IMG/VR virus record: IMGVR_UViG_3300023443_000216
Span: 1-55,748 of that record
Length of the DNA: 55,748 bases
Strand: one strand, 5' to 3'
Origin: a virus
Shown: positions 2,284-25,698 of the stretch, in pieces
Layout: every line of letters starts with the position of its first letter
How positions within the stretch are numbered: position 1 is the stretch's first letter
Program-made: the position numbers and the translations under genes
The notes under the pieces: generated by a model
What the model was told of the DNA's origin: nothing
Seen by the model: only the letters and a program-made list of their open reading frames with translations
Databases searched by the model: none

Positions 2284-3462
2284 CTATGGACATACTTCCT
2301 CCAACTTATCCACAACTCTACCAGCACTCTTAGCTGTACAAAACTTACTCTCAAACGTCTCCCTTGCTGCATGTCCCATTTCCAATCTTTTATCTGGTGA
2401 TGCTGATAGATACCTAATTGATGCTGCAATATCCCAACCATTATCCAAAAGTGCGACATTTACTCCATTCTCAAACTCAGGTTGTCCTAGACCATTGGCA
2501 CTGTGAGCTACAATACAAGATCCAAGAGACATAGCCTCTACCAACCGTGTACGCACTCCTACAGTAATAGCAGTAGGGCATAAGAATATATCAGCCTGCA
2601 ACATTTCTTTGCGTATGTCTTCTACATAACCTACAAACTCTATCTGAGGATACTGTTGAAATCTATTCTTCAAATCTGACATGAGAATATCACCACCACA
2701 GATACGCCATTCATAATCATCTATGTCGTCCATACACGGTAGTATATTTTCGACCAAATAGTACAAACTAGACAGTGTAGCCATACCTGTAAGGTGACCT
2801 GCTAGAAGTATACGTGGTTTGGAATTATTAGGCATATCCTCCTTACGCCTACGCCAACCAGGAAAAACAGAATCAGGAACAGGCATGGGTAGATATTCCA
2901 TTTGAAGTCCTATACTTTGAAACCATTTAGCACTCTGTTCAGCAGTACAAAAAGCATAATCACAAGATTGAACCAAAGGCAGATATGCTTGTTTTTTTGA
3001 TATACTACGATTGTGTATCTGTACAATTTCGTTGTAGTTCAACACCCTATCCCTGTGTTCATATTGCATACGGTAACAATCTATCAGGTGTTCAGGATCA
3101 CCCACTAAAACAACACGAGGTACAGATTGGTCATAAGCAGCACACCATGCCATATGCCAAGACCCTAAACTGGTGATAACATCCGGTTGGATCTGTGCCA
3201 ACATTTCTGAAATGGCCATAGGATGAAGACCACGCTTGAAATCCATTGCAACAACCTGCACACCTCTAGCACGTAGTGCGGCAATACCATATTGATCTTC
3301 TTGTGATAAATTACCTTCACTATCTACTGAGCCTGTAATATAGAGAACAAATATTTGATGGCCACGCGCACGCAACTCTTCAGTGATAGCCCATTGATTA
3401 AGCTTGGGACCACCTCCTGTAGACATAGGTAAATTACGTTCACATACCATTACTACTTTCAT
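2284..3462 (-). CDS. GT4-family (group 1) glycosyltransferase
   Basis: A 392-aa retaining glycosyltransferase of GT-B fold. The N-terminal Rossmann domain begins MKVVMVCERNLP with 'GGGPKLNQWAITEEL'. The C-terminal donor-binding domain has 'RILLAGHLTG' and the signature 'TRLVEAMSLGSCIVAHS', whose glutamate contacts the nucleotide-sugar ribose. ATG 3462 is chosen because GGAGG lies 9 nt upstream; GTG 3468 is too close to it. It overlaps the preceding methyltransferase by 23 bp. Likely transfers one of the sugars made by this operon to a surface glycan; donor and acceptor are unknown. Confidence 0.85.
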   Translation of the reverse strand: MKVVMVCERNLPMSTGGGPKLNQWAITEELRARGHQIFVLYITGSVDSEGNLSQEDQYGIAALRARGVQVVAMDFKRGLHPMAISEMLAQIQPDVITSLGSWHMAWCAAYDQSVPRVVLVGDPEHLIDCYRMQYEHRDRVLNYNEIVQIHNRSISKKQAYLPLVQSCDYAFCTAEQSAKWFQSIGLQMEYLPMPVPDSVFPGWRRRKEDMPNNSKPRILLAGHLTGMATLSSLYYLVENILPCMDDIDDYEWRICGGDILMSDLKNRFQQYPQIEFVGYVEDIRKEMLQADIFLCPTAITVGVRTRLVEAMSLGSCIVAHSANGLGQPEFENGVNVALLDNGWDIAASIRYLSASPDKRLEMGHAARETFESKFCTAKSAGRVVDKLEEVCP

Positions 3463-4303
3463 TATCACGTTCCTCCATTATCACATCTGTTAAACCGTGT
3501 CTTAAAATATTTAGCCCTACCTGCTCTATCGCTATTTCTCTAGATAGCCATTCTATTTTGTCATACTTAAGATATGGATAATTTTTAAAGTAATCATTGT
3601 TCCATCTTGTAGCTTGGAGCATATTATAGGTTTCTGCCCACTTACGAAATTCACCTGGATCTTCAGCAATATTATTTAGATACCAAAATTGTTCAGCCAA
3701 TAGTGATCCAGCTTTTTGGTATTTACTTCTGATAGTGATATCATCTTCCATCTTCACTCGCATATAGTGTTGATAACATGCGTCAACATCAGACAAAGAC
3801 AACCGGCGATTAACTTTAGCAACTAATACTTTATGAAAACGTTCTATTTGGGTTAACATACCATTAGCTAGTAATGCATCTAAACATATAGTTACAGCCA
3901 GATTTGCAATATCTCCCCTTATAGAAGTTTCGTAATCATCAAAAATTACAATCCCTTCTTCAGATAAGTGTGGTATCCATACATCTATGTCTGTTATGAT
4001 GCTCTTGAAATCGTGACCACCATCAACAAAAAGTAAATCTATCGTACCATTGTTCCATTCATTAGCAGCAGTCTGAGAGTCTATACCTAAAAAATTAACA
4101 CCTAAACTGGTTAATACATCATCAATCCCAGAGTATGGATATGGATCAATCGTGTACACAGTAGCGTTAGATGTACTCTTTAATAACCAAGCAGTACCGC
4201 CAAGTCCTGTACCTATCTCTACTACTATCCCTGTTTGTGGAACATTAACAGCATATTTACGTATTTGCTCCCATTCCCTATCCGTAAAATCTGTATGAAG
4301 CAC
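3440..4303 (-). CDS. Class I SAM-dependent methyltransferase
   Basis: A 287-aa protein with motif I 'VVEIGTGLGGTAWLL' (about residues 28-42), acidic motif 'VYTIDPYPY', and 'IDLLFVDGGHDF' plus 'GIVIFDDYE', the pattern of Methyltransf_24/cephalosporin-hydroxylase-like methyltransferases. The C-terminal third is unassigned and contains aromatic residues that may form the acceptor site. It starts one base into the stop of the aldo-keto reductase gene. Probably acts on a sugar or glycan, with the other methyltransferase at 1514-2203. Confidence 0.75.
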   Translation of the reverse strand: MLHTDFTDREWEQIRKYAVNVPQTGIVVEIGTGLGGTAWLLKSTSNATVYTIDPYPYSGIDDVLTSLGVNFLGIDSQTAANEWNNGTIDLLFVDGGHDFKSIITDIDVWIPHLSEEGIVIFDDYETSIRGDIANLAVTICLDALLANGMLTQIERFHKVLVAKVNRRLSLSDVDACYQHYMRVKMEDDITIRSKYQKAGSLLAEQFWYLNNIAEDPGEFRKWAETYNMLQATRWNNDYFKNYPYLKYDKIEWLSREIAIEQVGLNILRHGLTDVIMEERDNESSNGM

Positions 4304-5232
4304 TAAGTACTCCCTAAAAAGAATTCATGCTGGTTGTATATCTCTCGTATCTCTTCCACTTCATCATCTGACAAGGCAACAGATCTTATATTCTCCAACA
4401 CTTCTTCAACATGCATCATGCCTGGTATCGTAGTAGATATAGCATCATGTGCAAGAACAAATCCTAAAGCTAACTGTGCTGCTGTTCTATTACCCTCAAG
4501 GTGTTCAAACAACATAGGTGCATCAGCCCATACTTTTATTTGGCGATTAGACCAATGCCTTCTGTGATCATCCTTCCCCATGCTACCTATGTAACCTTTA
4601 AGCACATTTGATAGAAACCCAAAACACAAAGGCGTACGTGCTATGACCCCAATTCCCAAATGAACAGCTTTATCAAATAATTCATTGTCTCTAGCACGTT
4701 GATCAATCATTGAGAAATTAGTTTGTATGACTTCTATGCAATCTACAAAGCGAAAATCATACGGTGAATCTAGTGATATGCCAATAGATCTAATCTTCCC
4801 CTCATCCTTAAAAGTCATCATCAGTGATAAAGCACTAGCAACCATTTCTACGGGTGGGCTATGCAACTGGTATACATCTATGTAATCTGTCCTAAGACGC
4901 CTTAAACTGGCTTCTAGTGCACTCCTGAGATGTTCTGGTGAGAAGTCCTGGGGTGCAGGAGGTGTAGTGTGATATAAGCTCCCGCCTTTAGTGGCTATGA
5001 CAACCTCATGCCGGACTTTCTCAAACACTTTACCTATAAGTTCTTCACTGTGCCCATCGCCATAGATATCAGCAGTATCATAGAAATTGATACCATTTGC
5101 ATAAGCTGCTTCTAGTGTTCGTTTGGATTCTTTGTCTTTTGTTGGACCATAAGCATCTCCCCCTATGCCCCATGCACCAAACCCAATTTCCGAGACTTCA
5201 ATACCTGTGTTACCTAATTGTCTATATTTCAT
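4303..5232 (-). CDS. Aldo/keto reductase
   Basis: A 309-aa NAD(P)H-dependent oxidoreductase of the AKR TIM-barrel family and of normal length. It shows N-terminal 'LGNTGIEVSEIGFGAWGIGG' and the catalytic tetrad in 'FYDTADIYG' (Asp, Tyr), 'IATKGG' (Lys) and 'YQLHSP' (His). It reduces a carbonyl on a sugar or sugar-nucleotide. Similar genes sit in deoxysugar and capsule clusters. Substrate not deducible. Start overlaps the upstream zinc-protein gene by 4 bp (ATGA). Confidence 0.85.
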   Translation of the reverse strand: MKYRQLGNTGIEVSEIGFGAWGIGGDAYGPTKDKESKRTLEAAYANGINFYDTADIYGDGHSEELIGKVFEKVRHEVVIATKGGSLYHTTPPAPQDFSPEHLRSALEASLRRLRTDYIDVYQLHSPPVEMVASALSLMMTFKDEGKIRSIGISLDSPYDFRFVDCIEVIQTNFSMIDQRARDNELFDKAVHLGIGVIARTPLCFGFLSNVLKGYIGSMGKDDHRRHWSNRQIKVWADAPMLFEHLEGNRTAAQLALGFVLAHDAISTTIPGMMHVEEVLENIRSVALSDDEVEEIREIYNQHEFFLGST

Positions 5233-5501
5233 AATTTCAAATTGGGATATCTATCTAAAATCAATTGACGCAATACATCAGTATCCTTCCGCCTGACAAA
5301 TGATTTATTCTCTGAACGTAAATAGATTAAAGTAGCACGAAAACTATCCTCCAATCTACGCATACAGGTATCACAAAACCAAACCTCTTCTATATCCCCA
5401 TGTTCACGGACACTCTGATTAGGAATATACCTGTAATCATCATTACCTGCCAGTAAAATTGAGAAAATACCTTCTTGAAAACATCCATTACAATTATTCA
5501 T
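5229..5501 (-). CDS. Small CxxC/CxxC zinc-binding-like protein
   Basis: A 90-aa protein with C4-x2-C7 and C43-x2-C46, a four-cysteine arrangement fitting one zinc ion. The C-terminal half is helical and charged. It is embedded in the sugar operon with overlaps on both sides (8 bp and 4 bp), but nothing suggests an enzymatic role. No family recognised. Confidence 0.6.
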   Translation of the reverse strand: MNNCNGCFQEGIFSILLAGNDDYRYIPNQSVREHGDIEEVWFCDTCMRRLEDSFRATLIYLRSENKSFVRRKDTDVLRQLILDRYPNLKL

Positions 5502-6468
5502 TATTTCTTATCTTACTTCCTGTCCGTATCTTCTCTGGATCTGTTTCCATCATGTTCTTGTACCATAGTATAGTCTGTTGGAGTGCTACTTTAAAGGGGG
5601 TATACTCGAAATTAGATAGATTGATGAAGCGTGAATTGTCTGTACTCTTGTGGTAGGGTCCACTGGGTTTACTGGTATCCCATTTAATGCGTTCTGGATC
5701 AACGTCCATTTCTTCAGCAATCATAAGGGCGATAGCACTAACACTATTCTCTTCAGTGGTTCCTACATTTAATATCTGTTCTTCGTCATAGTTCTCAAGA
5801 CACCACATGTATGCCCTAGCTAAATCCTGAGCATAGGTTATCTCTCGTAATGGTGTACCATCTCCCCACAACTCTATATCGGGCCATTGATAACGATCTC
5901 CCCACCACGCTTTGTAGAACTTCCCGATAAGTGCAGCAGTCATGTTGCTGTCTTCAGGACCAAAATAATCATTCTCACCAAAGATACCATTAGGAACAAG
6001 ACCTATAACATTAATACCATATTCCTGCCGGTAGGCTCTAATCATAGGATCAATCAAACGTTTAGCAGAAGCATAGGCGTAGTTGGATTTATCTGGTCGC
6101 CCATAATATATATGATATTCTATCCGTGGATCTATATCATTAGGAGGATACATACCAGAAGATAAGGTCATAATAACCTTTTTAACACCACACAACCTAG
6201 CTGCTTCCAAGACATTCAAATCCATACGCACGTTGTCCCTGAGAAGCGTAGCAGGATGATCAGCACTTATACCCACACCCCCACTAACAGCAGCACAGTG
6301 GATAACATAATCTGGATTAATGGTTCTCATTTCTGAAACAGTGTTTAGTGCTAATCGTAAATCGTGCTTAGAATCCCAATAGAAAAACTTATACCATTGA
6401 TGATTATCCTCAATAGCCTTAAATGCAGAACCTAGAACACCATTACCGCCAGTTATTAAGATTCTCAT
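5494..6468 (-). CDS. GDP-L-fucose synthase-like epimerase/reductase (SDR)
   Basis: A 324-aa extended short-chain dehydrogenase. NAD(P)-binding 'GGNGVLGSAF' is at residues 7-16, and the catalytic Tyr-Lys pair is in 'YAYASAK' (about 128-134). 'VPNGIFGENDYF' matches the substrate loop of GDP-fucose synthases (Fcl/WcaG). In Campylobacter capsule clusters a paralogue of this enzyme reduces keto-GDP-heptose. With gmhA and hddA in the same operon, a GDP-heptose intermediate is the likely substrate. Fucose synthesis is less likely because no GDP-mannose 4,6-dehydratase is visible. Confidence 0.8.
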   Translation of the reverse strand: MRILITGGNGVLGSAFKAIEDNHQWYKFFYWDSKHDLRLALNTVSEMRTINPDYVIHCAAVSGGVGISADHPATLLRDNVRMDLNVLEAARLCGVKKVIMTLSSGMYPPNDIDPRIEYHIYYGRPDKSNYAYASAKRLIDPMIRAYRQEYGINVIGLVPNGIFGENDYFGPEDSNMTAALIGKFYKAWWGDRYQWPDIELWGDGTPLREITYAQDLARAYMWCLENYDEEQILNVGTTEENSVSAIALMIAEEMDVDPERIKWDTSKPSGPYHKSTDNSRFINLSNFEYTPFKVALQQTILWYKNMMETDPEKIRTGSKIRNNE

Positions 6469-7406: not shown

Positions 7407-8185
7407 GATTCCAACTCTATTAATGCATTAACTACTTCCTGAAAAGAGGGAACCCTGTAATGCCACAATACATCATCTTCCATAAAAGACACACCCTTAC
7501 CTGAAACTGTATTAGCAATCATAGCAAAAGGTAATTCTGCAGGATAGGGATTAATGGTCAGTTTATTAATAATTTCTTGAAAGTTATGTCCATCCACTCC
7601 AGCAGATTCCCATCCAAAAGCTCTAAACTTATTAACCAGCCAAGTTTCACCAGAGATATCGTCTGTCCTACCAACTGACTGTATTTTATTATAATCAACA
7701 ATAACTATGAGGTTATCAAGATTCTGTGCTCCAGCAAACTGTGCCGATTCCCAAACTGAGCCTTCATTGCACTCACCATCCCCCATAAGGACAACACAGC
7801 GTGCAGGAGAGTCTATCATCTTCAGTGCATAAGCAGCACCAGCAGCAATACCCAATCCATGACCAAGACTACCGGCAGACATACCTAAAAGTGGAAGTGT
7901 GTGTATATCAGGATGTGGCGTAAGTGGTGAACCAGGTGTAGCATATGAGTCTAGCCAGTCTTTGGGTATATAGCCCATCTCAGCATAGGTAGCGTAAAGT
8001 GCAGAACAAGCATGGCCCTTGCTGAAGTAGAACCTGTCAGATGGTCTGAGAAATCTTTTGTGGAGTGCCACTAGAATATCAACACAGGACAACGCACCAT
8101 TAAGATGCCCTTCACCACTATCATGAGACATCTGGACACACTTGGCACGTATACGCTTGGCACACTCTTCTAAGTCTTGGTACAT
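7403..8185 (-). CDS. Transketolase N-terminal subunit (thiamine diphosphate-binding)
   Basis: A 260-aa protein carrying the thiamine diphosphate and magnesium motif 'MGDGECNEGSVWESAQFA' through 'VDYNKIQ', plus 'SKGHACSALYA' and 'MSAGSLGHGLGIAAGAA', all typical of transketolase domain 1. With the 6465-7406 product it would move two-carbon units between sugar phosphates. The operon's gmhA needs sedoheptulose 7-phosphate, a transketolase product, which gives this host-like enzyme a clear local purpose. Confidence 0.9.
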   Translation of the reverse strand: MYQDLEECAKRIRAKCVQMSHDSGEGHLNGALSCVDILVALHKRFLRPSDRFYFSKGHACSALYATYAEMGYIPKDWLDSYATPGSPLTPHPDIHTLPLLGMSAGSLGHGLGIAAGAAYALKMIDSPARCVVLMGDGECNEGSVWESAQFAGAQNLDNLIVIVDYNKIQSVGRTDDISGETWLVNKFRAFGWESAGVDGHNFQEIINKLTINPYPAELPFAMIANTVSGKGVSFMEDDVLWHYRVPSFQEVVNALIELES

Positions 8186-8313
8186 ACTCTCTCGTTAATC
8201 TGTTTTAGAATTTGGTCTATTTTCGTACGATTACCTTTAGCTATTACTTTTCTCAATCTACGTCTTTCTCTGGGAGTTAGTTGCAGTTGAAGGGGATTTA
8301 TCTGAACATCCAT
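8170..8313 (-). CDS. Very small basic protein
   Basis: A 47-aa ORF, ATG 8313 to TAG 8170, filling the space between its neighbours with 16-bp overlaps on each side. The sequence (LTPRERRRLRKVIAKGN) is a basic, helical stretch. No family. Support is its tight placement and plausible composition; the ribosome site is weak. Confidence 0.4.
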   Translation of the reverse strand: MDVQINPLQLQLTPRERRRLRKVIAKGNRTKIDQILKQINERVCTKT

Positions 8314-8486
8314 GCCGTTTCTTTTCTAGCTTTCTTTCGACATTCTGGATAATCTTTATAATGCATCAGTATACGTTTTGTCCATACAGCAACAGGTTCT
8401 ATCCATATCTCATCTTCGCACATTGGACAAGTACAATAGATACTATGCTGTAAGCGAATCAAACAATTACAGATACTAATGTGCAT
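8298..8486 (-). CDS. Small cysteine-rich protein
   Basis: A 62-aa protein from ATG 8486, which overlaps the end of the RmlC-like gene by 11 bp. It has 'CNC', 'CTCPMC' and a later cysteine in 'YPECRKK', a likely zinc site. An in-frame TTG at 8510 would add 8 residues but lies deeper in the upstream gene. Unknown function. Confidence 0.5.
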   Translation of the reverse strand: MHISICNCLIRLQHSIYCTCPMCEDEIWIEPVAVWTKRILMHYKDYPECRKKARKETAWMFR

Positions 8487-9027
8487 CCCGTTCAGATAGT
8501 ATAGGTCCAAGTAATGGTGTGTTACCGCCTGGAATATACCCTATAGGCCAATCAATAGCTAATTCTGGATCATTCCATTTGAGTGTAAACTGAGATTCAG
8601 GATCGTAGTAGGTTGATTGCTTGTAATGGAATACGGCTTTATCACTTAACACGTAGTGACCATTACCAAAACCTGGTGGTATCAAAACTTGTTGGTGGTT
8701 CTGATCTGACAGTATGAATTGTGTATGTTCATAATACTGAAGTGTATCCAACATGTTATTAACTACTACTAGATGGATAGTACCGCTCAAGCAGGATACC
8801 AGTTTCCAAGTCTTATAATCGCCATGTATGCCACGTAGGACATTGTAGTATGAAACAGATATATCATCTTGAACAAAATCTATATCCATACCATGATCAT
8901 AAAACCCATTCTTGATATTACGATATGTGTATTCATTGTATGTCTCTGCATATTCACCACGATGATCCTTGAACACATCTGGAGTTATGAGAAGGACACC
9001 ATCAAGTTTAGTCTTTTCTACTTTCAT
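8476..9027 (-). CDS. RmlC-type nucleotide-sugar 3,5-epimerase
   Basis: A 183-aa cupin of the dTDP-4-dehydrorhamnose 3,5-epimerase family and of normal length. Hallmarks are 'FVQDDISVSYYNVLRGIHGD' (the catalytic His follows LRGI), 'IPPGFGNGHYVLS' and 'LKWNDPELAIDWP'. The usual LRGxHYQ tyrosine-glutamine pair is replaced by GD, as expected for a divergent subfamily. Beside gmhA and hddA, the closest functional parallel is the C3/C5 epimerase acting on 4-keto GDP-heptose in Campylobacter capsule synthesis. A rhamnose role is less likely because the other rml genes are absent. Confidence 0.82.
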   Translation of the reverse strand: MKVEKTKLDGVLLITPDVFKDHRGEYAETYNEYTYRNIKNGFYDHGMDIDFVQDDISVSYYNVLRGIHGDYKTWKLVSCLSGTIHLVVVNNMLDTLQYYEHTQFILSDQNHQQVLIPPGFGNGHYVLSDKAVFHYKQSTYYDPESQFTLKWNDPELAIDWPIGYIPGGNTPLLGPILSERDAH

Positions 9028-10013
9028 GAGATAATCTTACTCCCTTCAGACTCGAATTTAAATGGTACATGTACTAAATTGGATAACCTTTGGAGAACAT
9101 CTGGTTGATATTGAGGTTCACAGAAGATGAGCATGAAACCACCACCACCAGATCCTAGAAGTTTACCACCTAGCGCACCAGCAGATAAAGCAGAAGTATA
9201 GATATCGTCAATGTAAAAGTTGGTGACATTAGATACTGAATCCTTCTTAAGTTGCCAAGCCTCATCAAGTAATAACCCAAAATCTGTAATAGCATAATTA
9301 CTAGTTAGAATAGATACACCATCTTTGACCATACTAGCCATACGTCTTAAAACAGTCATTTGATTTTGGGTGTAGTGTTGATGATTAATATCTACATATC
9401 CTGGCTGTCTAGGGGCTGTATAAAACAGCATAAGATGCGATTGGAATTCTTCTAACCTGTCTGGTTCCAACTCTATAGGGAGTACAGCATTGGTACCAGT
9501 GGGATGCCAAACAATCTGATTGAGTCCACCATACGCGCACAGTATCTGATCTTGTGATCCTACATTTTCTTTAAGTATGTCATGTTCAACTTGAGTGGCA
9601 GATCTAGCTAACATCTCTTTGTATGATTCGTCTTGAGGTTTCCAATTACAAAAAGGCTCAGGAGCTAAACCATTTAACAATCCCACAACAAAAGCAGAGG
9701 AAGACCCTATACCGCTCTGTGCGGGTAAATCACGAGCATAGTAGACCTCAGCACCATCATCAATCCCAAGGTACCCCAGTGTGGCTCTCACGGCCTTGTG
9801 GCGTATCTCCTCTAACGTAGCACACTCCTCAAGCTCAGAATACAAAATGCGAAAGTTGTGAGTAGTGAATGGTGATTTAGGACCTACAGTAAGATAAACG
9901 TATTTGTCGATAGTTGCGCCTAGCACCATACCTATATGATGGTTGTACCAGCTGCTATAATCCGTTCCGCCTCCTAAAAACGATATCCTAAATGGAGTAC
10001 GACTTATAATCAA
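9024..10013 (-). CDS. hddA: GHMP kinase, D-glycero-D-manno-heptose 7-phosphate kinase-like
   Basis: A 329-aa GHMP-superfamily kinase. The ATP-binding loop 'LPAQSGIGSSSAF' is near residues 96-108 and the C-terminal glycine motif 'GGKLLGSGGGG' near 283-293. The N-terminal 'PFRISFLGGGTDY' is typical of HddA-type kinases that phosphorylate C1 of heptose 7-phosphate. The start is taken as TTG 10013, which overlaps the HNH stop (TTGA) and gives the same N-terminus (IISRTPFRIS) as is encoded at the start of the HNH ORF. TTG 10025 would add GCK-type residues and is less likely. See the paired repeats at 9981-10013 and 10466-10498. Confidence 0.88.
   Translation of the reverse strand: MIISRTPFRISFLGGGTDYSSWYNHHIGMVLGATIDKYVYLTVGPKSPFTTHNFRILYSELEECATLEEIRHKAVRATLGYLGIDDGAEVYYARDLPAQSGIGSSSAFVVGLLNGLAPEPFCNWKPQDESYKEMLARSATQVEHDILKENVGSQDQILCAYGGLNQIVWHPTGTNAVLPIELEPDRLEEFQSHLMLFYTAPRQPGYVDINHQHYTQNQMTVLRRMASMVKDGVSILTSNYAITDFGLLLDEAWQLKKDSVSNVTNFYIDDIYTSALSAGALGGKLLGSGGGGFMLIFCEPQYQPDVLQRLSNLVHVPFKFESEGSKIIS
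9981..10013 (-). repeat. Recoded copy of the first 11 hddA codons
   Basis: These 33 bp encode the start plus IISRTPFRIS, the same residues encoded at 10466-10498. The DNA is 24/33 identical and every difference outside the start codon is synonymous. It lies at the junction between the HNH stop and the kinase body, so it looks like a replacement 5' end carried by the inserted element. Confidence 0.9.
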
Positions 10014-10498
10014 TTTACACCCCAATGGATACCACAGATTATGCTAGATATAGTTTGTTGGGATACTCCAAATTGTTTAGCTAATATTCTACCATTCCCG
10101 CGTGCATATAACTCCTGAATTTGTTGAACCTCAAATAATGAAAGTTTGCGATTACTATGATTGTGTGGTGGATTAACAAATCTCCCTTTAGCAATACAGT
10201 CTTGAGTGTTATCTTTGTGTGTTCCCAAAAATAGATGTTCTGGATTAACGCAAATCCGATTATCACACCTATGAAGAACACATAACTTAGAAGATATAAC
10301 TCCATAAAATAATTCCCACGATACTCTATGTGCCATTTCAGTACGCTTCTGTCCTCTATTACGAGTAACTAAAAAACTACCGTAACCAGAACCATTACGC
10401 GGTCCTTTAAAAATCCAACAAGTATTAGTCTTTTCAACCTTAGACATAAACCGACCATATACTGAAGATATACGAAAGGGTGTTCTACTTATTATCAT
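10010..10498 (-). CDS. HNH homing endonuclease fused to the original hddA start
   Basis: A 162-aa protein. Residues 1-11 copy the N-terminus of the kinase encoded just downstream. From about residue 14 a standard HNH_3 protein follows: 'GRFMSKVEKTNTCWIFKG', the nuclease core 'CVLHRCDNRICVNPEHLFLGTHKDNTQD', then a C-terminal helix-turn-helix (about 122-155). Its ATG sits in the last codons of gmhA (14-bp overlap), exactly where hddA would be expected to start. It may also be translated from the internal ATG at 10447. The target is probably the hddA 5' end itself. Confidence 0.88.
   Translation of the reverse strand: MIISRTPFRISSVYGRFMSKVEKTNTCWIFKGPRNGSGYGSFLVTRNRGQKRTEMAHRVSWELFYGVISSKLCVLHRCDNRICVNPEHLFLGTHKDNTQDCIAKGRFVNPPHNHSNRKLSLFEVQQIQELYARGNGRILAKQFGVSQQTISSIICGIHWGVN
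10466..10498 (-). repeat. Original hddA 5' end, now the start of the HNH ORF
   Basis: These 33 bp give M-IISRTPFRIS and overlap the gmhA stop, an arrangement matching the other tightly coupled genes of the operon. They are the counterpart of the recoded copy at 9981-10013. Confidence 0.88.
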
Positions 10499-11078
10499 CT
10501 AAGCCGTCAGGATTAAACATAGCCTGTTCCACAAGATCGGCAAGGATGTGCTCAATCATCGCATGACTCTCCTGTATATACTGAACATTAGAACTAGGTA
10601 CAGCAATCCGAACATCTGCATCAATCCTAACCTGTACCACCATGTCACCAGTTAACAAAATAACGCGCATGTCTTTCTTCAAAGCAGCCAGTATAGCAAA
10701 AATAACATTGATAGATTTCCCACTTGTACTAATAGCAACTAAGACATCACCAGACTTACCCAATGCTTCAACTTGACGTTTAAAAATATTCTCAAATCCA
10801 ACATCATTACTGTGGGCTGTAAGAAAAGAAGTATCTGTAGTTAATGCGATTGCTGGTAAGCCTGGACGTTCCATAGACAGCTTAGAAACAAATTCAGTAG
10901 CCATGTGCTGACAGTCTGCGGCACTACCCCCATTTCCACATAGAAGTACTTTGTTGCCGTCTTTGAACGCCTGTATAAGTATCTCAGCAGCCTCAATTAT
11001 AGAATCTATACACTGCTCATAGACTTTGTACTTAGTTTCATTACTTTCTAGTATGTATTTTTGGACTCTTTCTTTCAT
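10485..11078 (-). CDS. gmhA: Phosphoheptose isomerase (sedoheptulose 7-phosphate isomerase)
   Basis: A 197-aa SIS-domain protein of GmhA type and length. It shows 'LLCGNGGSAADCQHMATEFVSK', 'PAIALTTDTSFLTAHSND' and 'AISTSGKS' for phosphosugar binding, and 'ESHAMIEHILADLVE' with the catalytic Glu/His helix. It converts sedoheptulose 7-phosphate to D-glycero-D-manno-heptose 7-phosphate. ATG 11078 overlaps the preceding small ORF (ATGA); GTG 11084 is an alternative. The downstream partner hddA is displaced by the HNH insertion but still present. Confidence 0.93.
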   Translation of the reverse strand: MKERVQKYILESNETKYKVYEQCIDSIIEAAEILIQAFKDGNKVLLCGNGGSAADCQHMATEFVSKLSMERPGLPAIALTTDTSFLTAHSNDVGFENIFKRQVEALGKSGDVLVAISTSGKSINVIFAILAALKKDMRVILLTGDMVVQVRIDADVRIAVPSSNVQYIQESHAMIEHILADLVEQAMFNPDGLDDNK

Positions 11079-11197
11079 TTCCACACCAATCTAATATACC
11101 AAAGACCACAAGCAATCAACAAACTTTTACGTTTACCTGAATAGGCAAATCCTACATCAAATGTACCATGTGGTTTATATGCATCTACCTTAAGCAT
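11075..11197 (-). CDS. Very small hypothetical protein
   Basis: A 40-aa ORF from ATG 11197 (8-bp overlap with the upstream epimerase gene) to TGA 11075 (ATGA overlap with gmhA). It fills an otherwise empty 105-bp interval and contains one hydrophobic patch (LLIACGLWYI). No family. Confidence 0.45.
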   Translation of the reverse strand: MLKVDAYKPHGTFDVGFAYSGKRKSLLIACGLWYIRLVWK

Positions 11198-12122
11198 TCC
11201 TATATACTCCCACTGGCGTCATCTTATAGCCCTTGATAAGTTCTTCTATACCTTGACTTAGCGACGTATTAGCGACGTAACCTGCATCCCTCAACCGTTG
11301 GTTAGATACAATATAATCACGCTTGTCTGGATCACTACCATATTCTGAAATACAAATTTCCAAAGTGGGTATGTGTTCCTTGATAGCATTTGCTAAATTT
11401 AGTTTGGTAGTATTCAAGAAATCATTGCCAACGTTGTAAGCACGTCCTACCATGCCTTCGGCGTTCTCAATACAGTGTATGAAACAATCAGCAACATCGC
11501 GTATGTGCACAAAGTTACGTCTAAAGTATGGCTCAAACAAGACAAGGTATCCATCAGTCACGGCCTTGTAGACAAAATCATTGACCAGAAGATCAATACG
11601 CATACGAGAAGACATACCAAAAACTGTAGCAAGGCGTAAAGCTATGGTATCGTGGTGATATCTAAATAACCATTCTTCAGCTTGTCGTTTAGACTCTCCA
11701 TAAATGGATATAGGAGTTAGCGGTGTATCTTCTGTACAAATTTCATTAGGAGCAGTAGAACCATAGCCACTATTGGTATTTGGGTAGATAACTAATTTAT
11801 CCTTTAACCCAGCCAAGTGTCCAGACAGGTGTGTATTGATATCATTAACATCACGCCTAAGATAATTACTACAAGCTGGAGCACCTACAATAGCAGCAAG
11901 CGGTATTATAATATCTGATTGAGTGACTAGATCCTGTAATGGTTGATAGTTAACCACATTACCGTAAACAAAGTGGAACTTAGGATTAGACGCAAGATGA
12001 AAGAGACTGGTTTGACCATACATTAAGTTATCCAGAACTGTTACATCATAGCCAGCATCTAGAAGGTGTTCACACAAAACTGATCCGATGTAACCCGCTC
12101 CACCAGTAACTAAGACTTTCAT
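11190..12122 (-). CDS. NAD-dependent nucleotide-sugar epimerase/dehydratase
   Basis: A 310-aa extended SDR with the NAD-binding motif 'VTGGAGYIGSVLCEHL' (residues 4-19), substrate loop 'YPNTNSGYG' and catalytic 'YGESK' with Tyr and Lys. 'RRNFVHIRDVADCF' is the usual C-terminal motif. It oxidises C4 of a sugar nucleotide. In the Campylobacter heptose pathway a relative oxidises GDP-D-glycero-heptose at C4 before the RmlC-like and Fcl-like steps, and all three types are present here. First clearly metabolic gene of the left operon. Confidence 0.82.
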   Translation of the reverse strand: MKVLVTGGAGYIGSVLCEHLLDAGYDVTVLDNLMYGQTSLFHLASNPKFHFVYGNVVNYQPLQDLVTQSDIIIPLAAIVGAPACSNYLRRDVNDINTHLSGHLAGLKDKLVIYPNTNSGYGSTAPNEICTEDTPLTPISIYGESKRQAEEWLFRYHHDTIALRLATVFGMSSRMRIDLLVNDFVYKAVTDGYLVLFEPYFRRNFVHIRDVADCFIHCIENAEGMVGRAYNVGNDFLNTTKLNLANAIKEHIPTLEICISEYGSDPDKRDYIVSNQRLRDAGYVANTSLSQGIEELIKGYKMTPVGVYRNA

Positions 12123-16896: not shown

Positions 16897-17487
16897 CTAA
16901 CGCCATGAACTACGCTTGCTACCACCTATAATCTTAGAACTAGTAACTTCTTCTCGCTGTATATCTCTACTAGGTTCATGATCCTCTTTTCTCTCACCAC
17001 TTATGACCCTACCAGCAGAGCGTTTGTAATAAGACATGAGCATACTAAAAGCATCAACAATGTCATCATGGGGTGATTCTGGGAAGTCTGCCAACTCTTC
17101 TATGAAATCATCAACCCAAGGCTCACCTAAAGGCAGATGGACCATACCAGCTTCTACCATGCCTGTCACAGCACTAGCACGTCTATACTTATCGCCATCT
17201 GGATTGCTGGCCAACACCGGAATACCTTTGGTCTTTAGTTCCTGTATGAGGCTCTGACCACTAGCTTTGTTCTCGATTATGACACGTCCAGGGTTCCACA
17301 TCTTATATAGTTCTTCAGATTTCTTGACCAACTCAGGCCATTCCACACGCTGCCTGAACATATCCATCAAGAAAATCCTGTGGTCTTTGCCTCTACCAGC
17401 AGTTAGACATACACTGTAATCAGCACTAGTCTTGGCCTGAAATGCGGTATCCCAACTAGATACTATGTCACTAATTTGGTCCTTCAA
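16897..17487 (-). CDS. terL: Terminase large subunit, nuclease domain ORF
   Basis: A 196-aa protein equal to the C-terminal RNase H-fold nuclease of TerL. Acidic metal ligands are in 'SWDTAFQAKTSADYSV' (first Asp), 'VIIENKASGQSL' (Glu) and 'SPHDDIVDAFSML' (Asp pair). It cuts concatemeric DNA during packaging. It has no ATPase domain; that is encoded separately at 19154-19933, 1.67 kb upstream. Translation would start at TTG 17487, overlapping the preceding stop as TTGA. The C-terminal tail is basic. Confidence 0.85.
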   Translation of the reverse strand: MKDQISDIVSSWDTAFQAKTSADYSVCLTAGRGKDHRIFLMDMFRQRVEWPELVKKSEELYKMWNPGRVIIENKASGQSLIQELKTKGIPVLASNPDGDKYRRASAVTGMVEAGMVHLPLGEPWVDDFIEELADFPESPHDDIVDAFSMLMSYYKRSAGRVISGERKEDHEPSRDIQREEVTSSKIIGGSKRSSWR

Positions 17488-17882
17488 AAAGTAGCCCGAT
17501 ATCCATCATGCCAGTTATCTTCAGCTATGATTCTGGTTCTACGCTCATTGGCTATTTTAATGGCGTGTTGTTCATCATCAACTTCTACATACGCCCACAT
17601 ACCATTATGCAAAATATTAGTATACCCAGCCATGTTATCAGGATTGGATACCTTATATCTTTTTATCCAACTAACATCACCATCTTTCTCCATTGATATT
17701 TTATATTGTACTATAAATTCAAATGGCTCATTTAACTGATATTCCTCAACACTACCACCACCATACCCATCTTCTATTTCAGATTCAGTAAGGTATATAT
17801 TAGCTCGCTCTTCTGTGCTAAAGATTGCCGCAATACCATAATCACTGTAGCAACCACTAGTAACCACATATACAGTTGTCAT
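17484..17882 (-). CDS. Hypothetical protein between terL halves
   Basis: A 132-aa protein beginning TTVYVVTSGCYSDYGIAAIFST, a pattern I associate with small phage proteins of unknown function ('YSDY..A.FST.E.A'). It is acidic and alpha/beta. It begins right after the stop of the preceding gene and overlaps the terL nuclease start by 4 bp. No nuclease motif, so it does not by itself explain the terL split. Confidence 0.65.
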   Translation of the reverse strand: MTTVYVVTSGCYSDYGIAAIFSTEERANIYLTESEIEDGYGGGSVEEYQLNEPFEFIVQYKISMEKDGDVSWIKRYKVSNPDNMAGYTNILHNGMWAYVEVDDEQHAIKIANERRTRIIAEDNWHDGYRATF

Positions 17883-18104
17883 CTAACAATCTCCATAGCT
17901 GCCCCAAGTTTGGTCTGGATTACCCGCTAACCCTGTAGTAACCTTATTCAAACAATGTCTAGATATTAACCATTTACGATCTAAGTACCAACGCTTGTCT
18001 TGCTCAGTTAATGCTCTAGTATGATAATGTTGGTTGTTCTCTTTAAAGTAAACACAGTGTCCACCACCATCTAGATTCTTAAGTAACTCCCACGCTTTTG
18101 GCAT
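17883..18104 (-). CDS. Small hypothetical protein
   Basis: A 73-aa protein. ATG 18104 is chosen because GGAGG lies 4 nt upstream; longer in-frame starts would run into the upstream gene. It contains His, Trp and Tyr clusters (NNQHYHTRAL). No family recognised. Confidence 0.55.
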   Translation of the reverse strand: MPKAWELLKNLDGGGHCVYFKENNQHYHTRALTEQDKRWYLDRKWLISRHCLNKVTTGLAGNPDQTWGSYGDC

Positions 18105-18135
18105 ACGACCTCCGTCGTGAACGTATTCGTTATGT

Positions 18136-18336
18136 CTACCTCTCACAAATCCATTGATCTCCCCACATCGTGTGTCCATGCCCATCAAGAGTCCAGCAAC
18201 CATCCGGTCCTCTCATATTCTTAAACAACTCAGCCAATTCCTCTTTGATTTCCTCACGGATTATCCTACGAATTTGGTCAAAATTGTCTTGGCCTAGAGA
18301 GAATCCAAGCTCACCCATCTTTCTATCCTGCATCAT
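18136..18336 (-). CDS. Small hypothetical protein with charged helix
   Basis: A 66-aa protein with an amphipathic charged helix (IREEIKEELAELFKNM, about residues 25-40) and a Trp/His/Gly-rich C-terminus. It is joined to the upstream zinc-ribbon gene by an ATGA overlap. Confidence 0.55.
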   Translation of the reverse strand: MMQDRKMGELGFSLGQDNFDQIRRIIREEIKEELAELFKNMRGPDGCWTLDGHGHTMWGDQWICER

Positions 18337-18491
18337 TTCTTCCCCTTCTTCTTCTGCCCTTTACTCTGTTTCTTAGACCCTCGGGTCTCTTTCTTCTGCT
18401 TCTTAACTTTAGGTGGAGGACACACAGCACAAGTACCAGGCTTGAAATAATGAAATCCACACTTGGGGCATTTGACACGATTATCTGGCAT
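18333..18491 (-). CDS. Zinc-ribbon mini-protein with lysine-rich tail
   Basis: A 52-aa ORF, ATG 18491 to TGA 18333, with C8-x2-C11 and C21-x2-C24 and a tail that is over 40% Lys/Arg (KKQKKETRGSKKQ). The layout suggests a nucleic-acid-binding zinc knuckle. It overlaps the upstream gene by 11 bp and the downstream one by ATGA, and it displaces a longer overlapping frame of poor composition. Confidence 0.65.
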   Translation of the reverse strand: MPDNRVKCPKCGFHYFKPGTCAVCPPPKVKKQKKETRGSKKQSKGQKKKGKK

Positions 18492-18804
18492 ACTGCTCCA
18501 ATGGTTTGAGTATAGTGTATGGACCCGCCCATTTATTGTGCCAATTATGCATTAACATACCATCATCCCTCAATCCAAATTCATCATCCGACAATACCCT
18601 AATCTCACCAGTCTCAACAAACTTGATGCCACCAAACTCATGTATAACAGGAACAGGATGGACTATAGCATATTCCTCTGTGTCTATACCTACAATTTCT
18701 TGCTCTACCTCTCCCCTAATATTTAATAGATACTCTCCCTGCTGTGGCCTACCATACTGTCCCCTGAATTCAAACTCTTTGCCTTCATATGTAAAGCGTA
18801 TCAT
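18481..18804 (-). CDS. Hypothetical protein
   Basis: A 107-aa acidic, beta-rich protein starting MIRFTYEGKEFEFRG with GGAG 7 nt upstream of ATG 18804. No recognised domain. It is the first gene after the 104-bp non-coding stretch within the terL split. Confidence 0.6.
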   Translation of the reverse strand: MIRFTYEGKEFEFRGQYGRPQQGEYLLNIRGEVEQEIVGIDTEEYAIVHPVPVIHEFGGIKFVETGEIRVLSDDEFGLRDDGMLMHNWHNKWAGPYTILKPLEQYAR

Positions 18805-18908
18805 GTTTTAACTCCACAAATAGAATACCTATAGCATATCAGAACAAGGTAACAAACTTGGTTTAATTTTCAGTAACAGTTTCAACAGTCCAGTTACCTT
18901 GACTATGT
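18805..18908. other. Non-coding gap within the split terL
   Basis: The gap contains a second copy of a terL linker segment (18877-18898, 21/22 identical to 19159-19180). A 22-bp spacer at 18899-18920 divides this copy from the other half at 18921-18932. The ACATAGTC in the spacer recalls a group I intron P7 strand, but no partner was found. Confidence 0.6.
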
Positions 18909-18932
18909 CTAGCTATCGCTTTCATCCATAAC
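18877..18932 (-). repeat. Second, interrupted copy of the terL linker segment
   Basis: 18877-18898 matches 19159-19180 at 21 of 22 bases, and 18921-18932 matches 19181-19192 exactly. In terL the two parts are contiguous and encode VMDEGNWTAET. Here they are separated by 22 bp, so the frame is broken, and the first part gives the C-terminal 'QLVMDE' of the 18909-19157 ORF. Confidence 0.85.
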
Positions 18933-19157
18933 AAGCTGCTTCTGTCCATAGAACTCCCCTAAAAGTAATGTTTGATATCCATCTGAATAACTCAACTCAA
19001 TCTCTCTAACACTAATATCAAACTTCTCTGGCTCCCAAGACCAAAAGGCATCTCTAATCAACAGGTACTCAGCAAAGTTAGAGTGGTGGGCTATCCAATG
19101 TAATTCTATCCAATTGTGACCATCTTGTTCTGCCATGATCTTAGTAATTACATTCAT
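18909..19157 (-). CDS. Small protein ending in a terL-like tail
   Basis: An 82-aa protein whose ATG overlaps the stop of the terL ATPase ORF (ATGA). The body (EQDGHNWIELHWIAHHSNFAEYL) is unrecognised. Its last residues 'QKQLVMDESDS' repeat the 'YQLVMDE' found at the end of the terL ATPase ORF, so the gene lies between two copies of that segment. It may have entered with, or been created by, that duplication. Confidence 0.55.
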   Translation of the reverse strand: MNVITKIMAEQDGHNWIELHWIAHHSNFAEYLLIRDAFWSWEPEKFDISVREIELSYSDGYQTLLLGEFYGQKQLVMDESDS

Positions 19158-19933
19158 TCAGTTTCAGCAGTCCAGTTACCTTCATCCATAACCAATTGAT
19201 ACTCCCGCCACCACTCACGGTGATATAGATTTCCTCCAGCTTTCTCAGCTAACTCTCCCTCATATAGTCTCCTATACTCCCAAACAGGTAATGTACGCCT
19301 GGCTTCCTCCATAGATGTCTGTGTATAAGTGGGATTGGCTGTAGACTTAAACTTAACAAACTCAACATCATAATTAGGAGATGGTTTTTCTGGTGTACCT
19401 AATTCCTGCTTAATCCACCTAACATTACGTGGTGTACCTGTGAGAAGCACTTGACCCATCATAAGGCTATATTGATCCCTCTGTCCTGCGTAGTAGCGTG
19501 TACGTTCCATAGCTCTTCTAAACGCACCTAAAGGACATTCATCAAACTCATCTATCCAACAACCAGCTACGTGCGCTCCTTCCCAATGAGTTAAACTTTC
19601 TGCACTCGCAAATAATATATTACCACTCTTACACTCAATACGCCTATGCTGTATACGTAATTCAGGTTCCTCCCCTAAACCTTCAAGAAACTGCACTACG
19701 GTCAACCTTTTAGGATCAATAGGATCAATAACTACACGGTCTAAAAGAGCATAGGTGGGAAAACCAATAAGCCATGAAAAACCTGGATGCTTCTGCATAC
19801 GAGTATAGAGCCACTGATAAGCACCTGAAGTCTTACCACCACCTTGACCAGCCGTTACAGCAGTTACACGAGCACCAGAGGTTATGAACTCTAACTGACC
19901 CTCATGTAGGGATGTGGTCTTGAGTATAGCCAC
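19154..19933 (-). CDS. terL: Terminase large subunit, ATPase domain ORF
   Basis: A 259-aa ORF holding the packaging ATPase of TerL. Walker A is 'TAGQGGGKTSGAY' (about residues 27-39), Walker B with catalytic Glu is 'GCWIDEFDE' (about 124-132), and the coupling motif is 'VLLTGTPRN' (about 161-169). It stops after 'QLVMDEGNWTAETE' with no nuclease domain. Intact TerL proteins are usually 400-600 aa, so this is half a gene; the other half is 16897-17487. The two products may assemble in trans, or the split may need splicing. Confidence 0.88.
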   Translation of the reverse strand: MAILKTTSLHEGQLEFITSGARVTAVTAGQGGGKTSGAYQWLYTRMQKHPGFSWLIGFPTYALLDRVVIDPIDPKRLTVVQFLEGLGEEPELRIQHRRIECKSGNILFASAESLTHWEGAHVAGCWIDEFDECPLGAFRRAMERTRYYAGQRDQYSLMMGQVLLTGTPRNVRWIKQELGTPEKPSPNYDVEFVKFKSTANPTYTQTSMEEARRTLPVWEYRRLYEGELAEKAGGNLYHREWWREYQLVMDEGNWTAETE

Positions 19934-20185
19934 TTAAACAGTTTCAGTCCAACTCAACTGTATATCATTCGGCAAAGTACTTGTACCACCACTAAAATCA
20001 GTATTATCCGGCTTAACCTTTTCAACAGTCATATCAATAGTAACACCCTTCTTCATAGATATATGATAATCCCTTAATGCAACATGTACATCACTAGCAA
20101 ACTTCTGGGCGTCATACAATGTCTCACCCTCACAGGTTATAGTGAATATGATCTTATGCAAACTAGCCGGTTTCTGTTGTACCAT
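19934..20185 (-). CDS. Small hypothetical protein
   Basis: An 83-aa protein with a plausible ferredoxin-like beta-alpha-beta pattern (IIFTITCEGETLYDAQKFASDVHVAL). ATG 20185 overlaps the stop of the HTH gene and its stop abuts terL. Unknown function. Confidence 0.55.
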   Translation of the reverse strand: MVQQKPASLHKIIFTITCEGETLYDAQKFASDVHVALRDYHISMKKGVTIDMTVEKVKPDNTDFSGGTSTLPNDIQLSWTETV

Positions 20186-22466: not shown

Positions 22467-22657
22467 TACTCAACCTCCTTAGCTCTTATTTTCTCCGATT
22501 CATCCAATTTATGCTTAATAGAATATAAATGCCCCACAGTAGTTTGAGATTCATCTCTAAGAAACTTTGAACCATAATAACTATCAACAGACAACATCAT
22601 ATTTAAATGATTCTTTAACTTCTCTGCCTCAATCTCTGTTAGTATAATACTTCTCAC
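22466..22657 (-). CDS. Small hypothetical protein
   Basis: A 63-aa charged helical protein joined to polA by an ATGA overlap and to the next gene by one base. No domain recognised. Confidence 0.55.
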   Translation of the reverse strand: MRSIILTEIEAEKLKNHLNMMLSVDSYYGSKFLRDESQTTVGHLYSIKHKLDESEKIRAKEVE

Positions 22658-25600
22658 AACGTCAACTCCTGTGTATTAGCCCACGAAAGACCAGATTTAG
22701 CTTCAGCCAGTACCGGCACACTCAGAGACACTGCACTACACAACGCATCAATAACAACCATAGCTACAGGTATAACATCATCTATGGGTACCTCTCCACC
22801 TAATTCATCATGGAATTGACCTATAAGATCTAGTGGTATATTTTGTCTATCACGTTCCCTAACCAAATTAGCTGTGCCTATCTTCAACAATCCTGCTGCT
22901 CCACCCTGAATGGGTTGATTACCTGCTTTACGCTCACCTGCTTCTCTAATCCACTGATGGGGGGAACTAAGCTCTGGTATATAACACCTTCTACCCCACA
23001 TGTCTATAGCGTAACCATTCTGATAACTAAGTTCAATAGTATGGCGTGTGTATTCCTGAACCTCTGGATACAACTTAAAGTAATCCTCAATCAAGTCTTG
23101 ACAGTCTCTAAGACTCCATCCTTTTACCTCATTTTCTATCATAAGATCTAAGAGTCCTTGTGCACTGATCCCATAGACAACCCCGAAATTAACATTCTTA
23201 ATGGGTTTCCTGTACCTATCTTCTTTTGCAATCTCTCTATCAACATTAAAAACTCTGCAAGCAGTATCAGTATGAACATCACCACCCATCCTAAACAATG
23301 CAATAAGATTACTACAACCTGAAGCATGAGCTAACACCCTCATCTCTATCTGACTATTATGCGTATAAACCCCACAAGATAATGCGAACAAATGTGAGTC
23401 TGATTCCACTTCAATATCTACAGTTTGCTTTTCCCCAACATATTCTATCAATACAACCTTGTGATTATGTCCTTCCCTACGTGCACTCCAATAACAATTC
23501 GTTGAACAATACTTCTGCTGCTTACATGGTGGCACATAAAATTCCACATTACAATATAAACACTCTAACTGTGGTCCCTTCCTATACCCATATCTAGGAT
23601 TTAAATCTCCACGGTAATCACGCCCAGTACTAAGTGCTTCCCTCAACTTTTCTAACCTGAGTGTATGATCTTGTCTAGCATAGCTACGTGGACTATCCTT
23701 AGCACGATGCTCAGATTGTAATAGATACTGCAAATTCTTGGGGGTATCATTCCCTGGATTACCATCAATATGGTCTACCTCATATCCTTCCGGCCTATCC
23801 CCATATACCAATTGAGCCACAGTCAGAGCTTCTTTTGTATATTCAATAGCCTTATGCGCATACATGTGTGATCTATAATTAGCATACACCCGCTTTAAAG
23901 GCAACAATCTATCTCCAACTCCAATATCTGAAATAGAAACTAATTCATAATCATCGTTCTGATAATAATATAGCCTTGGAACTTTGTGATTAGCAGTAGC
24001 TGTAAAAGATTCACCATTATCTAAAGTAATTTTCCAACATTTTTGTATACCACTATATCTACGACCTTTCACATAAGCAGCCTTGGGACGCCTATCCCCA
24101 TATGAATAGATAATATCCCCTTTCTTCAGATCCTCTATAGCTACATCACCATAAGGGGTATCAACTAAAGTACCTTCAGCTAAACACAAATCTACAAACA
24201 ACAATTGTTTACCAGGACGTGCTATGAATGCATCACGTACTTCTCTACCCAACTCTGTCCTAACTGGTATGGTTTGAAGTGGTGGATCACTTACTTTGAG
24301 ACGCCCAGTATCAGTACCAGCAAGACGAATGGCAGGGTGTACAACAAAACAACTACTGTCCAGAATATCAACGGACGTGAATCTAGGAAGCTTTTCAGCA
24401 TAACTACTCCTGACCTTTAGTATCTTTCTATATTCCAGTATGGGTTTGATCACTGGATGCTTTATCTTGCTAAGTTCTTTATCATTGGTACTGGCTTTCT
24501 TAGCTTTCTTGGTCTTCTTAGTTACATCATATCCTAGTTCTTCATACACCAACTGGCGTACCTGATCATGACTATTGGGATTGAAACCATATCCAGCAAT
24601 GTCTTTACATATCTCTGCCTGTTCCTGCATCAGTACTATACATTTCTCAGACAATGCGTGTAACTTACCCACATCAACAGCCATACCATTCTGCATCATC
24701 TCAAGACACACAGGAAGCATAGACATTTCCATCTTGAATACATCTTCAAGTCCTGCGTCTCTCAGCATAGGCATAAGTTTCTGACACACACGCCAGGTAG
24801 CATCAGAATCACGACTAGAATAGTACACAGCTTCTTCATGTGGTACATCATGCAAACCCGCATCACGCATAGGACCAAGCACGTCTTCCACACACCTACG
24901 CTCACGTTCATCTATATCATACCAAGCCTTGTAAACGTCAAAGTCTGGATTACCTTCTGCTTTCTTAATCCTAGCTCGTATCTTTGTGCCTATGTTCTGA
25001 GGATTTTTAGTTAATTGAGCCAACTCACCTTTATAATTGGACCATTCCCAATCTAGTAATTCTGGTGGATCAGACCACTCACTGTCCGCTGCGTTTAGAT
25101 ACTCTAAAGCTACTTCACGTCTGTAAGGCTGAACATACTCCATGTAATCATGCATCTCCATACCACACAAGACATAGGCCAGTGTCTTTAATCCCATAGG
25201 TATCTGCAAGATCCAAGCAGCAATCATATTATCTATTGGGTTGAGTATATCTATGAACTTGGCATCATACAGATAGTTATGGACTATAACTTTTGAGTCT
25301 CTGTGTATTCTGATAGCAAGACTGTTTGCATGAAGGACACTAGTTTGCCCCCACAATCTGATAGGAATAAAGTATCCATACCCTGGTCTGTCTGTAATTT
25401 GTATACTCCATAACTCGGACCTGCCATTAACCTCAATAGTTTCTGTATCAAGCGCAAACAAAGGGAGTGATAAAAGTCTCTCAGCTTCTTCAACACTGGT
25501 TACCTCTTCATAAATAGGATCTGGGTATTCATCAACTTGAGTAGTGGGGTAGTCATTAGAGCCACTAGCGTTAGCTACCCTTGGGAAACGTATAGGACAA

Positions 25601-25698
25601 GTATATAATCCTGTCTTCTCGTTCCTCTCTACAGCGTCTGTGCATCCCAAGTAGGGCATCTTACACAGATCACATGCTATGTTATTTTCGTGAAACAT
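22654..25698 (-). CDS. polA: Family A DNA polymerase containing an intein
   Basis: A 1014-aa precursor; about 737 aa after intein removal. The 3'-5' exonuclease has 'LDTETIEV' (D84, E86), 'HNYLYD' (about 140-145) and 'YSSRDSD' (about 293-299). Polymerase motif A is split by the intein: 'LLFVDL' (499-504) then 'SQIEMR' (782-787). Motif B is 'RKPIKNVNFGVVYG' (about 830-843), with Phe at the E. coli F762 position. Motif C is 'FHDE' (962-965). The N-terminus has four cysteines (9, 12, 19, 34) that may bind zinc. It is the likely replicative polymerase and is inactive until the intein splices. Confidence 0.95.
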   Translation of the reverse strand: MFHENNIACDLCKMPYLGCTDAVERNEKTGLYTCPIRFPRVANASGSNDYPTTQVDEYPDPIYEEVTSVEEAERLLSLPLFALDTETIEVNGRSELWSIQITDRPGYGYFIPIRLWGQTSVLHANSLAIRIHRDSKVIVHNYLYDAKFIDILNPIDNMIAAWILQIPMGLKTLAYVLCGMEMHDYMEYVQPYRREVALEYLNAADSEWSDPPELLDWEWSNYKGELAQLTKNPQNIGTKIRARIKKAEGNPDFDVYKAWYDIDERERRCVEDVLGPMRDAGLHDVPHEEAVYYSSRDSDATWRVCQKLMPMLRDAGLEDVFKMEMSMLPVCLEMMQNGMAVDVGKLHALSEKCIVLMQEQAEICKDIAGYGFNPNSHDQVRQLVYEELGYDVTKKTKKAKKASTNDKELSKIKHPVIKPILEYRKILKVRSSYAEKLPRFTSVDILDSSCFVVHPAIRLAGTDTGRLKVSDPPLQTIPVRTELGREVRDAFIARPGKQLLFVDLCLAEGTLVDTPYGDVAIEDLKKGDIIYSYGDRRPKAAYVKGRRYSGIQKCWKITLDNGESFTATANHKVPRLYYYQNDDYELVSISDIGVGDRLLPLKRVYANYRSHMYAHKAIEYTKEALTVAQLVYGDRPEGYEVDHIDGNPGNDTPKNLQYLLQSEHRAKDSPRSYARQDHTLRLEKLREALSTGRDYRGDLNPRYGYRKGPQLECLYCNVEFYVPPCKQQKYCSTNCYWSARREGHNHKVVLIEYVGEKQTVDIEVESDSHLFALSCGVYTHNSQIEMRVLAHASGCSNLIALFRMGGDVHTDTACRVFNVDREIAKEDRYRKPIKNVNFGVVYGISAQGLLDLMIENEVKGWSLRDCQDLIEDYFKLYPEVQEYTRHTIELSYQNGYAIDMWGRRCYIPELSSPHQWIREAGERKAGNQPIQGGAAGLLKIGTANLVRERDRQNIPLDLIGQFHDELGGEVPIDDVIPVAMVVIDALCSAVSLSVPVLAEAKSGLSWANTQELTL
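23356..24186 (-). mobile_element. Intein with HNH endonuclease in polA motif A
   Basis: A 277-aa intein, precursor residues 505-781. Block A is 'CLAEGTLVDTPYGDVAIED' with Cys1. Block B is 'TATANHKV'. Blocks F/G are 'VDIEVESDSHLFAL' and 'GVYTHN' before the +1 Ser of the C-extein. All class 1 splicing residues are present. The insert carries an HNH_3 nuclease ('YEVDHIDGNPGNDTPKNLQYL') and a four-cysteine finger ('CLYCNVEF' ... 'CSTNCYW'). It interrupts the catalytic Asp motif (DL/SQIE), a site that cannot tolerate imprecise loss. Confidence 0.95.

Follow-up and report, generated by a model that had tools for sequence, protein, structure and literature searches.

In models of the large terminase (TerL), such as the electrostatic transmission model for T4, the ATPase and nuclease domains are coupled via a hinge within one chain. 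The terminase coding region of herpesvirus UL15 is interrupted by other genes and is turned into one chain by spliceosomal splicing, and packaging ATPases of the phi29 type have no nuclease domain. The isolated domains of T4 gp17 keep their activities, while translocation is lost without the hinge (PMC9958956), and the kcat of D6E TerL rises to 457.7 per min without the nuclease domain (PMC5727402). Introns have been found in terL as well: splicing of the KASIA terL intron was proved by cDNA (PMC8541194), terL introns are present in 5 of 52 Bastillevirinae (PMC11878797), and others were reported in Jug phages (PMC12363816). Our search of the literature found no description of an unspliced split TerL.

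The window, by which we mean the whole 55,748-nucleotide stretch of viral DNA analysed here, encodes the two TerL domains in separate ORFs on the minus strand, 1.67 kb apart (Table 1). An earlier note on this sequence had described the two ORFs, the complete motifs in each and six small genes between them. All three observations hold: Pfam and PHROG identify both ORFs, each half retains the catalytic residues and is predicted to fold like a domain, and six minus-strand ORFs were counted in the gap.

Two TerL halves and their relatives

The ATPase ORF matched Pfam Terminase_6N at 5e-7 (above the cut-off) and phrog_2 at 7e-14. Its Walker A (GQGGGKT, residues 29–35), Walker B (IDE, 127–129) and motif III (GTP, 166–168) are invariant in the clade, and its predicted fold (mean pLDDT 72.5) lies nearest to the ATPase domains of P74-26 and D6E TerL, with P74-26 as the best PDB match. 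The nuclease ORF matched Terminase_6C at 2e-15 and phrog_38 at 1e-35. Alignment with relatives showed that the acidic triad (D13, E72 and D141/D142/D145) is kept. Structure prediction gave an RNase H fold that starts at the first beta strand and is complete (mean pLDDT about 91 over residues 1–159), matching the TerL nucleases of G20c, RB49 and T4. The window thus has what characterises the TerL family, namely an ATPase with Walker A, the catalytic Glu of Walker B and motif III, together with an RNase H-fold nuclease; it departs from the family in that the domains do not share one polypeptide, both here and in the related contig L001, where separate ORFs are likewise divided by in-frame stops.

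Table 1. Positions of the terL halves and of the features between them in the window
Feature	Position	Strand	Basis
TerL nuclease half, 196 aa, TTG start	16897..17487	−	Terminase_6C, phrog_38, residues, fold
ORF132, DUF7336	17484..17882	−	PF24024 2.4e-7
ORF106, function not assigned	17883..18203	−	ORF call
ORF66, function not assigned	18136..18336	−	ORF call; 4-nt overlap with ORF52
ORF52, zinc-ribbon-like by eye (CPKCGFHYFKPGTCAVC)	18333..18491	−	ORF call
ORF107	18481..18804	−	sole gap gene common to window and L001
Promoter-like element AAACCAAGTTTGTTACCTTGTTCTGATATGCTATAGG (extended −10 TGATATGCT)	18828..18864	−	motif repeated in L001
Second copy of ATPase 3′-end DNA	18877..18943	−	alignment to L001 ATPase tail
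ORF82	18909..19157	−	ATGA overlap with ATPase stop; imperfect direct repeats either side
TerL ATPase half, 259 aa, GTG start	19154..19933	−	Terminase_6N, phrog_2, motifs, fold

Relatives were collected by searches with the window nuclease, which returned L001 and many distant sequences, and with the ATPase alignment, which returned L085, L086/L087 and L088. L001 is split at the same position (ATPase 5366–6205, nuclease 7870–8475), and its halves share 64% (ATPase) and 68% (nuclease) protein identity with those of the window. The same split at these identities means that it is neither a chance event nor the product of one bad assembly. An assembly or sequencing artefact might be suspected from the metagenomic origin of the contigs and from the frameshift-type break in another terL (L115). 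However, the same junction occurs independently in L001 at about 68% DNA identity, and the operon is continuous, with overlapping start and stop codons. This reading is effectively refuted by L001, and we give it almost no credence.

The earlier note had proposed looking for the intact gene in close relatives, and terL proved to be unbroken across the split point in three members of the same clade. It is whole in L086 (484 aa) and L088 (460 aa), and in L085 it is continuous over the junction, without the C-terminal third. The gene order of L086 (TerS-like, terL, deaminase, portal) is that of the window. In trees calculated for each half, the window groups with L001, next to L085, L086 and L088. 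At 1992–2090 of L085, where the last third of TerL is missing, the sequence runs into convergent sugar-metabolism-like genes, possibly owing to a chimeric contig or a rearrangement. The portals of L086 (9366–12290) and L088 (4957–7431) are extended on the C-terminal side by large regions that the window portal lacks; judged by eye, these resemble an insertion of the ADP-ribosyltransferase type ahead of the minor head part. In L001 an orotidine 5′-phosphate decarboxylase gene (PF00215; 8466–9116) directly follows the nuclease half, and sugar-modification genes at 8476–12122 of the window include a dTDP-4-dehydrorhamnose 3,5-epimerase (PF00908) and a nucleotide-sugar epimerase (phrog_540).

The split is rare. 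Our survey set comprised 198 related nuclease-bearing loci, nearly all from IMG/VR, in 88 clusters at 90%. The nuclease is fused to at least 150 upstream residues in 183 of them; 12 are cut by a contig edge, and the three short ones are L001, the only linker split among the 198, L115 with its frameshift-like break, and L139 with an HNH ORF inside the ATPase domain. Four spot-checked records of annotated phages all have a single-ORF TerL, and no relatives of the nuclease or the portal were found in bacterial and archaeal genomes. Only two split genomes are known, one of them a 10.7-kb contig, which counts against the two-protein explanation developed below.

Both halves retain codon-position bias (0.30/0.25/0.56 and 0.30/0.22/0.55) and have diverged about as far as the portal (67% identity), with more divergence at third codon positions, and the C-terminal SxWR of the nuclease half is identical in the split proteins, L086 and L088. 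Third-position divergence, catalytic residues, portal-like divergence and the common SxWR all fit continued joint use of the halves. The record, which may be incomplete, was also searched for a second intact terL, a possibility raised in the earlier note; none was found, and no other TerL ATPase or nuclease is detectable in its 55,748 bases. This absence would suit a dead terL in a defective phage or in a satellite that borrows the packaging machinery of a helper. Against such a decayed gene, both frames are open in two lineages, the catalytic residues are all kept, the codon divergence is of the purifying type, and portal, neck, major tail and fibre genes are also present in the window, all of which makes it highly unlikely.

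The break point and the genes in the gap

The break falls in the interdomain linker. The linker of an intact relative, for example L086, reads REYWQYYQDLPKEMEQVVQFWDTA; the window ATPase terminates with REWWREYQLVMDEGNWTAETE and a stop codon, and the nuclease starts with LKDQISDIVSSWDTAF, so that both domains are covered by the halves, which tile the intact linker at YQ/LPKE with no catalytic region missing. Two distinct viruses have this gene structure, conserved in sequence and broken at the same position on a domain boundary. The C-terminal end of the window ATPase half is a 12-residue non-homologous tail, VMDEGNWTAETE, which has no significant similarity to the native linker (shuffle p 0.17–0.99) and is probably a new addition. 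Some similarity to the native linker was seen at the nuclease start: the best comparisons gave shuffle p values of 0.006 (window) and 0.052 (L001), and none of the others reached significance. The TTG codon of the nuclease sits at or near the position of the native linker Leu. A duplication of terL followed by complementary decay was rejected, as the ATPase tail is unlike the native linker and the nuclease start is partly similar to it.

The six ORFs of the gap (17488–19153; 1,666 nt) are 52–132 aa long, and most of them overlap or abut. The TGA stop of ORF132 overlaps the TTG start of the nuclease by 4 nt (TTGA). In L001, 8 nt separate the end of a conserved gene from the nuclease, whose GTG start has an in-frame TAA before it. 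The gap genes of L001 mostly differ from those of the window and include an HNH nuclease ORF; the gap DNA is not conserved between the two genomes, except for ORF107 and a promoter-like element. ORF107 is 44% identical to L001 7514–7861 and 39% identical to L087 5025–5345, where the homolog lies upstream of an intact terL and outside that gene. One L001 gap gene in turn has a homolog elsewhere in the window. Going by both cases, the gap behaves as a place where ordinary phage genes can land.

The promoter-like element comes after the ATPase end in each of the two split genomes. The window has a single copy with a score of 32.2, the next site scoring 12.8. In L001, the motif TAACC..TTTGTTACC..TG.TATACTATA stands directly after the ATPase stop and has five copies (6213, 6764, 7042, 9114 and 9684), three of them in the gap, each shortly 5′ of an ORF. 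Zero copies were present in the intact relatives checked. A sigma-70 consensus scan gave no more sites than in shuffles, and the promoter claim rests on the repeat in L001. The element combines an extended −10 with GTTAC/GTAAC repeats, as in a promoter or operator, and also occurs at 3100 on the minus strand of L089. L001 contains a second repeated element, leader-like, at 4791–4831, 7476–7516 and 9950–9990 (consensus about GATCG..CGCGTTTGCTGGAGGCAACGATG), which is hairpin-like with a Shine-Dalgarno sequence; the copy at 7476 lies immediately 5′ of a start codon.

The second ATPase 3′ end of the window, taken with the motif, aligns to the ATPase tail and motif of L001 at 167, against a shuffle maximum of 131. 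This copy is the probable original junction with the inserted cassette, and ORF82 probably a later insertion. The flanks of ORF82 (18877–18943 and 19159–19203) form an imperfect direct repeat of the ATPase 3′ end. The 83-aa gene ahead of the ATPase (19934–20185) has a similar terminal peptide, SWTETV.

Splicing and excision

The earlier note had offered a choice between assembly of the halves in trans and an unseen splicing event that joins them. Our analysis favours assembly in trans, as far as sequence can tell, and several independent lines disfavour the hidden splice. If the small genes belonged to a divergent self-splicing intron of group I or II, its removal from the mRNA would restore a single TerL chain, and such an origin is in keeping with terL as a known intron target and with the HNH ORF in the L001 gap. 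However, no group I or II intron was matched by Rfam at E ≤ 10 in the gap of the window or of L001, whereas the terL group I intron of Shewanella phage 1/4, our positive control, was detected at 2.8e-7. The sensitivity of Rfam is imperfect, as the HNH ORF in the terL ATPase domain of L139 gave no match at E ≤ 1. Coding genes abut the nuclease start in both genomes, so a ribozyme core would have to lie within coding sequence, and the abutting genes differ between the two. An intron with one endonuclease would not look like these six overlapping ORFs, the gap includes a promoter-like element, the remaining gap DNA apart from ORF107 is unconserved, and the gap gene common to both genomes also occurs outside terL in a relative. 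On this evidence the hidden splice is unlikely.

Other routes to a single chain were also considered. An intein or split intein at the break was rejected, since only the short window tail follows the linker and no intein-like sequence precedes the nuclease. An excisable element was likewise rejected: the two window junctions have no 8–14 nt word in common, and Pfam identified no recombinase among the gap ORFs. The L001 junctions share one 10-nt match. In L139 (1765–3671), the ATPase domain of terL is interrupted by an HNH-endonuclease-like ORF; rejoining would seem needed there, and the interruption is possibly an unrecognised intron type. The DNA polymerase A of the window (22654–25698) is intact and contains an intein with an HNH endonuclease domain at about residues 505–781.

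A proposed packaging motor of two proteins

We consider it likely that the insertion of a cassette split an ancestral terL and that two separate proteins, presumably assembling in trans, now take its place. The ancestor of the clade would have had an ordinary single-chain TerL. Several small accessory genes, together with a promoter of their own, would have been inserted as one block into the short ATPase–nuclease linker in the common ancestor of L001 and the window phage. The ATPase frame would then read on into the regulatory DNA of the insert and end after a few codons. Translation of the nuclease would begin with TTG or GTG in place of ATG, near or at the site of the linker Leu of the intact protein, and in the window it would be coupled to the preceding gene. 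ORF82 would have entered the window copy later, duplicating part of the terL 3′ end. Made separately, the two proteins would come together again at the portal through non-covalent contacts, forming a two-subunit motor whose ATPase ring translocates DNA and whose nuclease, with its conserved SxWR tail, cuts it. The TTG start and weak Shine-Dalgarno sequence of the window nuclease count against this two-protein explanation.

We infer that the halves assemble into one motor, which probably consists of two proteins, in contrast to the single protein of nearly all other phages. Removal of the hinge from T4 gp17 abolishes translocation (PMC9958956), and a motor assembled in trans is therefore not expected to work without adaptation. 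More tentatively, it may be an obligate two-subunit motor with separate promoters, a nuclease that is independently dosed or timed, and hinge-free pumping of DNA. Alternatively, the nuclease could act outside the translocating motor, as a free headful-cutting enzyme or in some other role, with the ATPase ring pumping alone as in the phi29 type. The activity of isolated ATPase domains and the nuclease's own promoter-like element agree with such a free enzyme, but no catalytic residue is missing from the nuclease half and its SxWR tail is that of the intact relatives, suggesting an unchanged docking partner, and we regard a nuclease outside the motor as quite unlikely.

A second enzyme of the clade has been divided in a comparable way. 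L087 has a whole terL, and its family A DNA polymerase (1317–4565) is broken at the boundary of the exonuclease and polymerase domains, giving a UDG and exonuclease ORF (1317–2804) and a polymerase ORF (3339–4565); an MT-A70 methyltransferase gene (2788–3351) divides these and overlaps both. The two parts tile the window polymerase at residues 326/327, and the split gave no Rfam intron signal. Domain-boundary fission by gene insertion therefore seems recurrent in the clade.

If the terL split is naturally fixed, TerL can do without the covalent link between its domains, or a non-covalent interface can stand in for it. A natural split would then be a ready system for domain coupling, stoichiometry and nuclease control, and terL searches that assume one ORF will misannotate phages of this kind.

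Compared with single-chain TerL (T4, P74-26 and D6E; Terminase_6N plus Terminase_6C), the window has the same domains, motifs, folds and neighbourhood, but two genes 1.67 kb apart and no covalent hinge. The coding region of herpesvirus UL15 is also separated by genes, and differs in being joined by eukaryotic splicing into one chain. Packaging ATPases of the phi29 type likewise lack a nuclease tether, whereas the window still encodes, nearby, a TerL nuclease with its catalytic residues. The terL genes with group I introns (KASIA, Shewanella phage 1/4, Bastillevirinae and Jug phages) also form two ORFs with ORFs between. Those introns are recognisable, and spliced where tested, whereas no intron was found in the gaps of the window and L001; the window gap instead holds a promoter-like element as well as six overlapping genes, and relatives differ in what the gap contains. 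The intein-bearing TerL genes of Mic1 and phiCbK (PMC7156551, PMC3556154) also carry mobile DNA within terL, but the window break has no intein or split-intein sequence, the intein of the window being in DNA polymerase and not in TerL. Split phage polymerases, namely the Pol III of jumbo phages (PMC7824862), the MEP401 DNAP (PMC10580990) and the Pol A of L087, are likewise two-domain core enzymes encoded as two genes, although in enzymes other than TerL.
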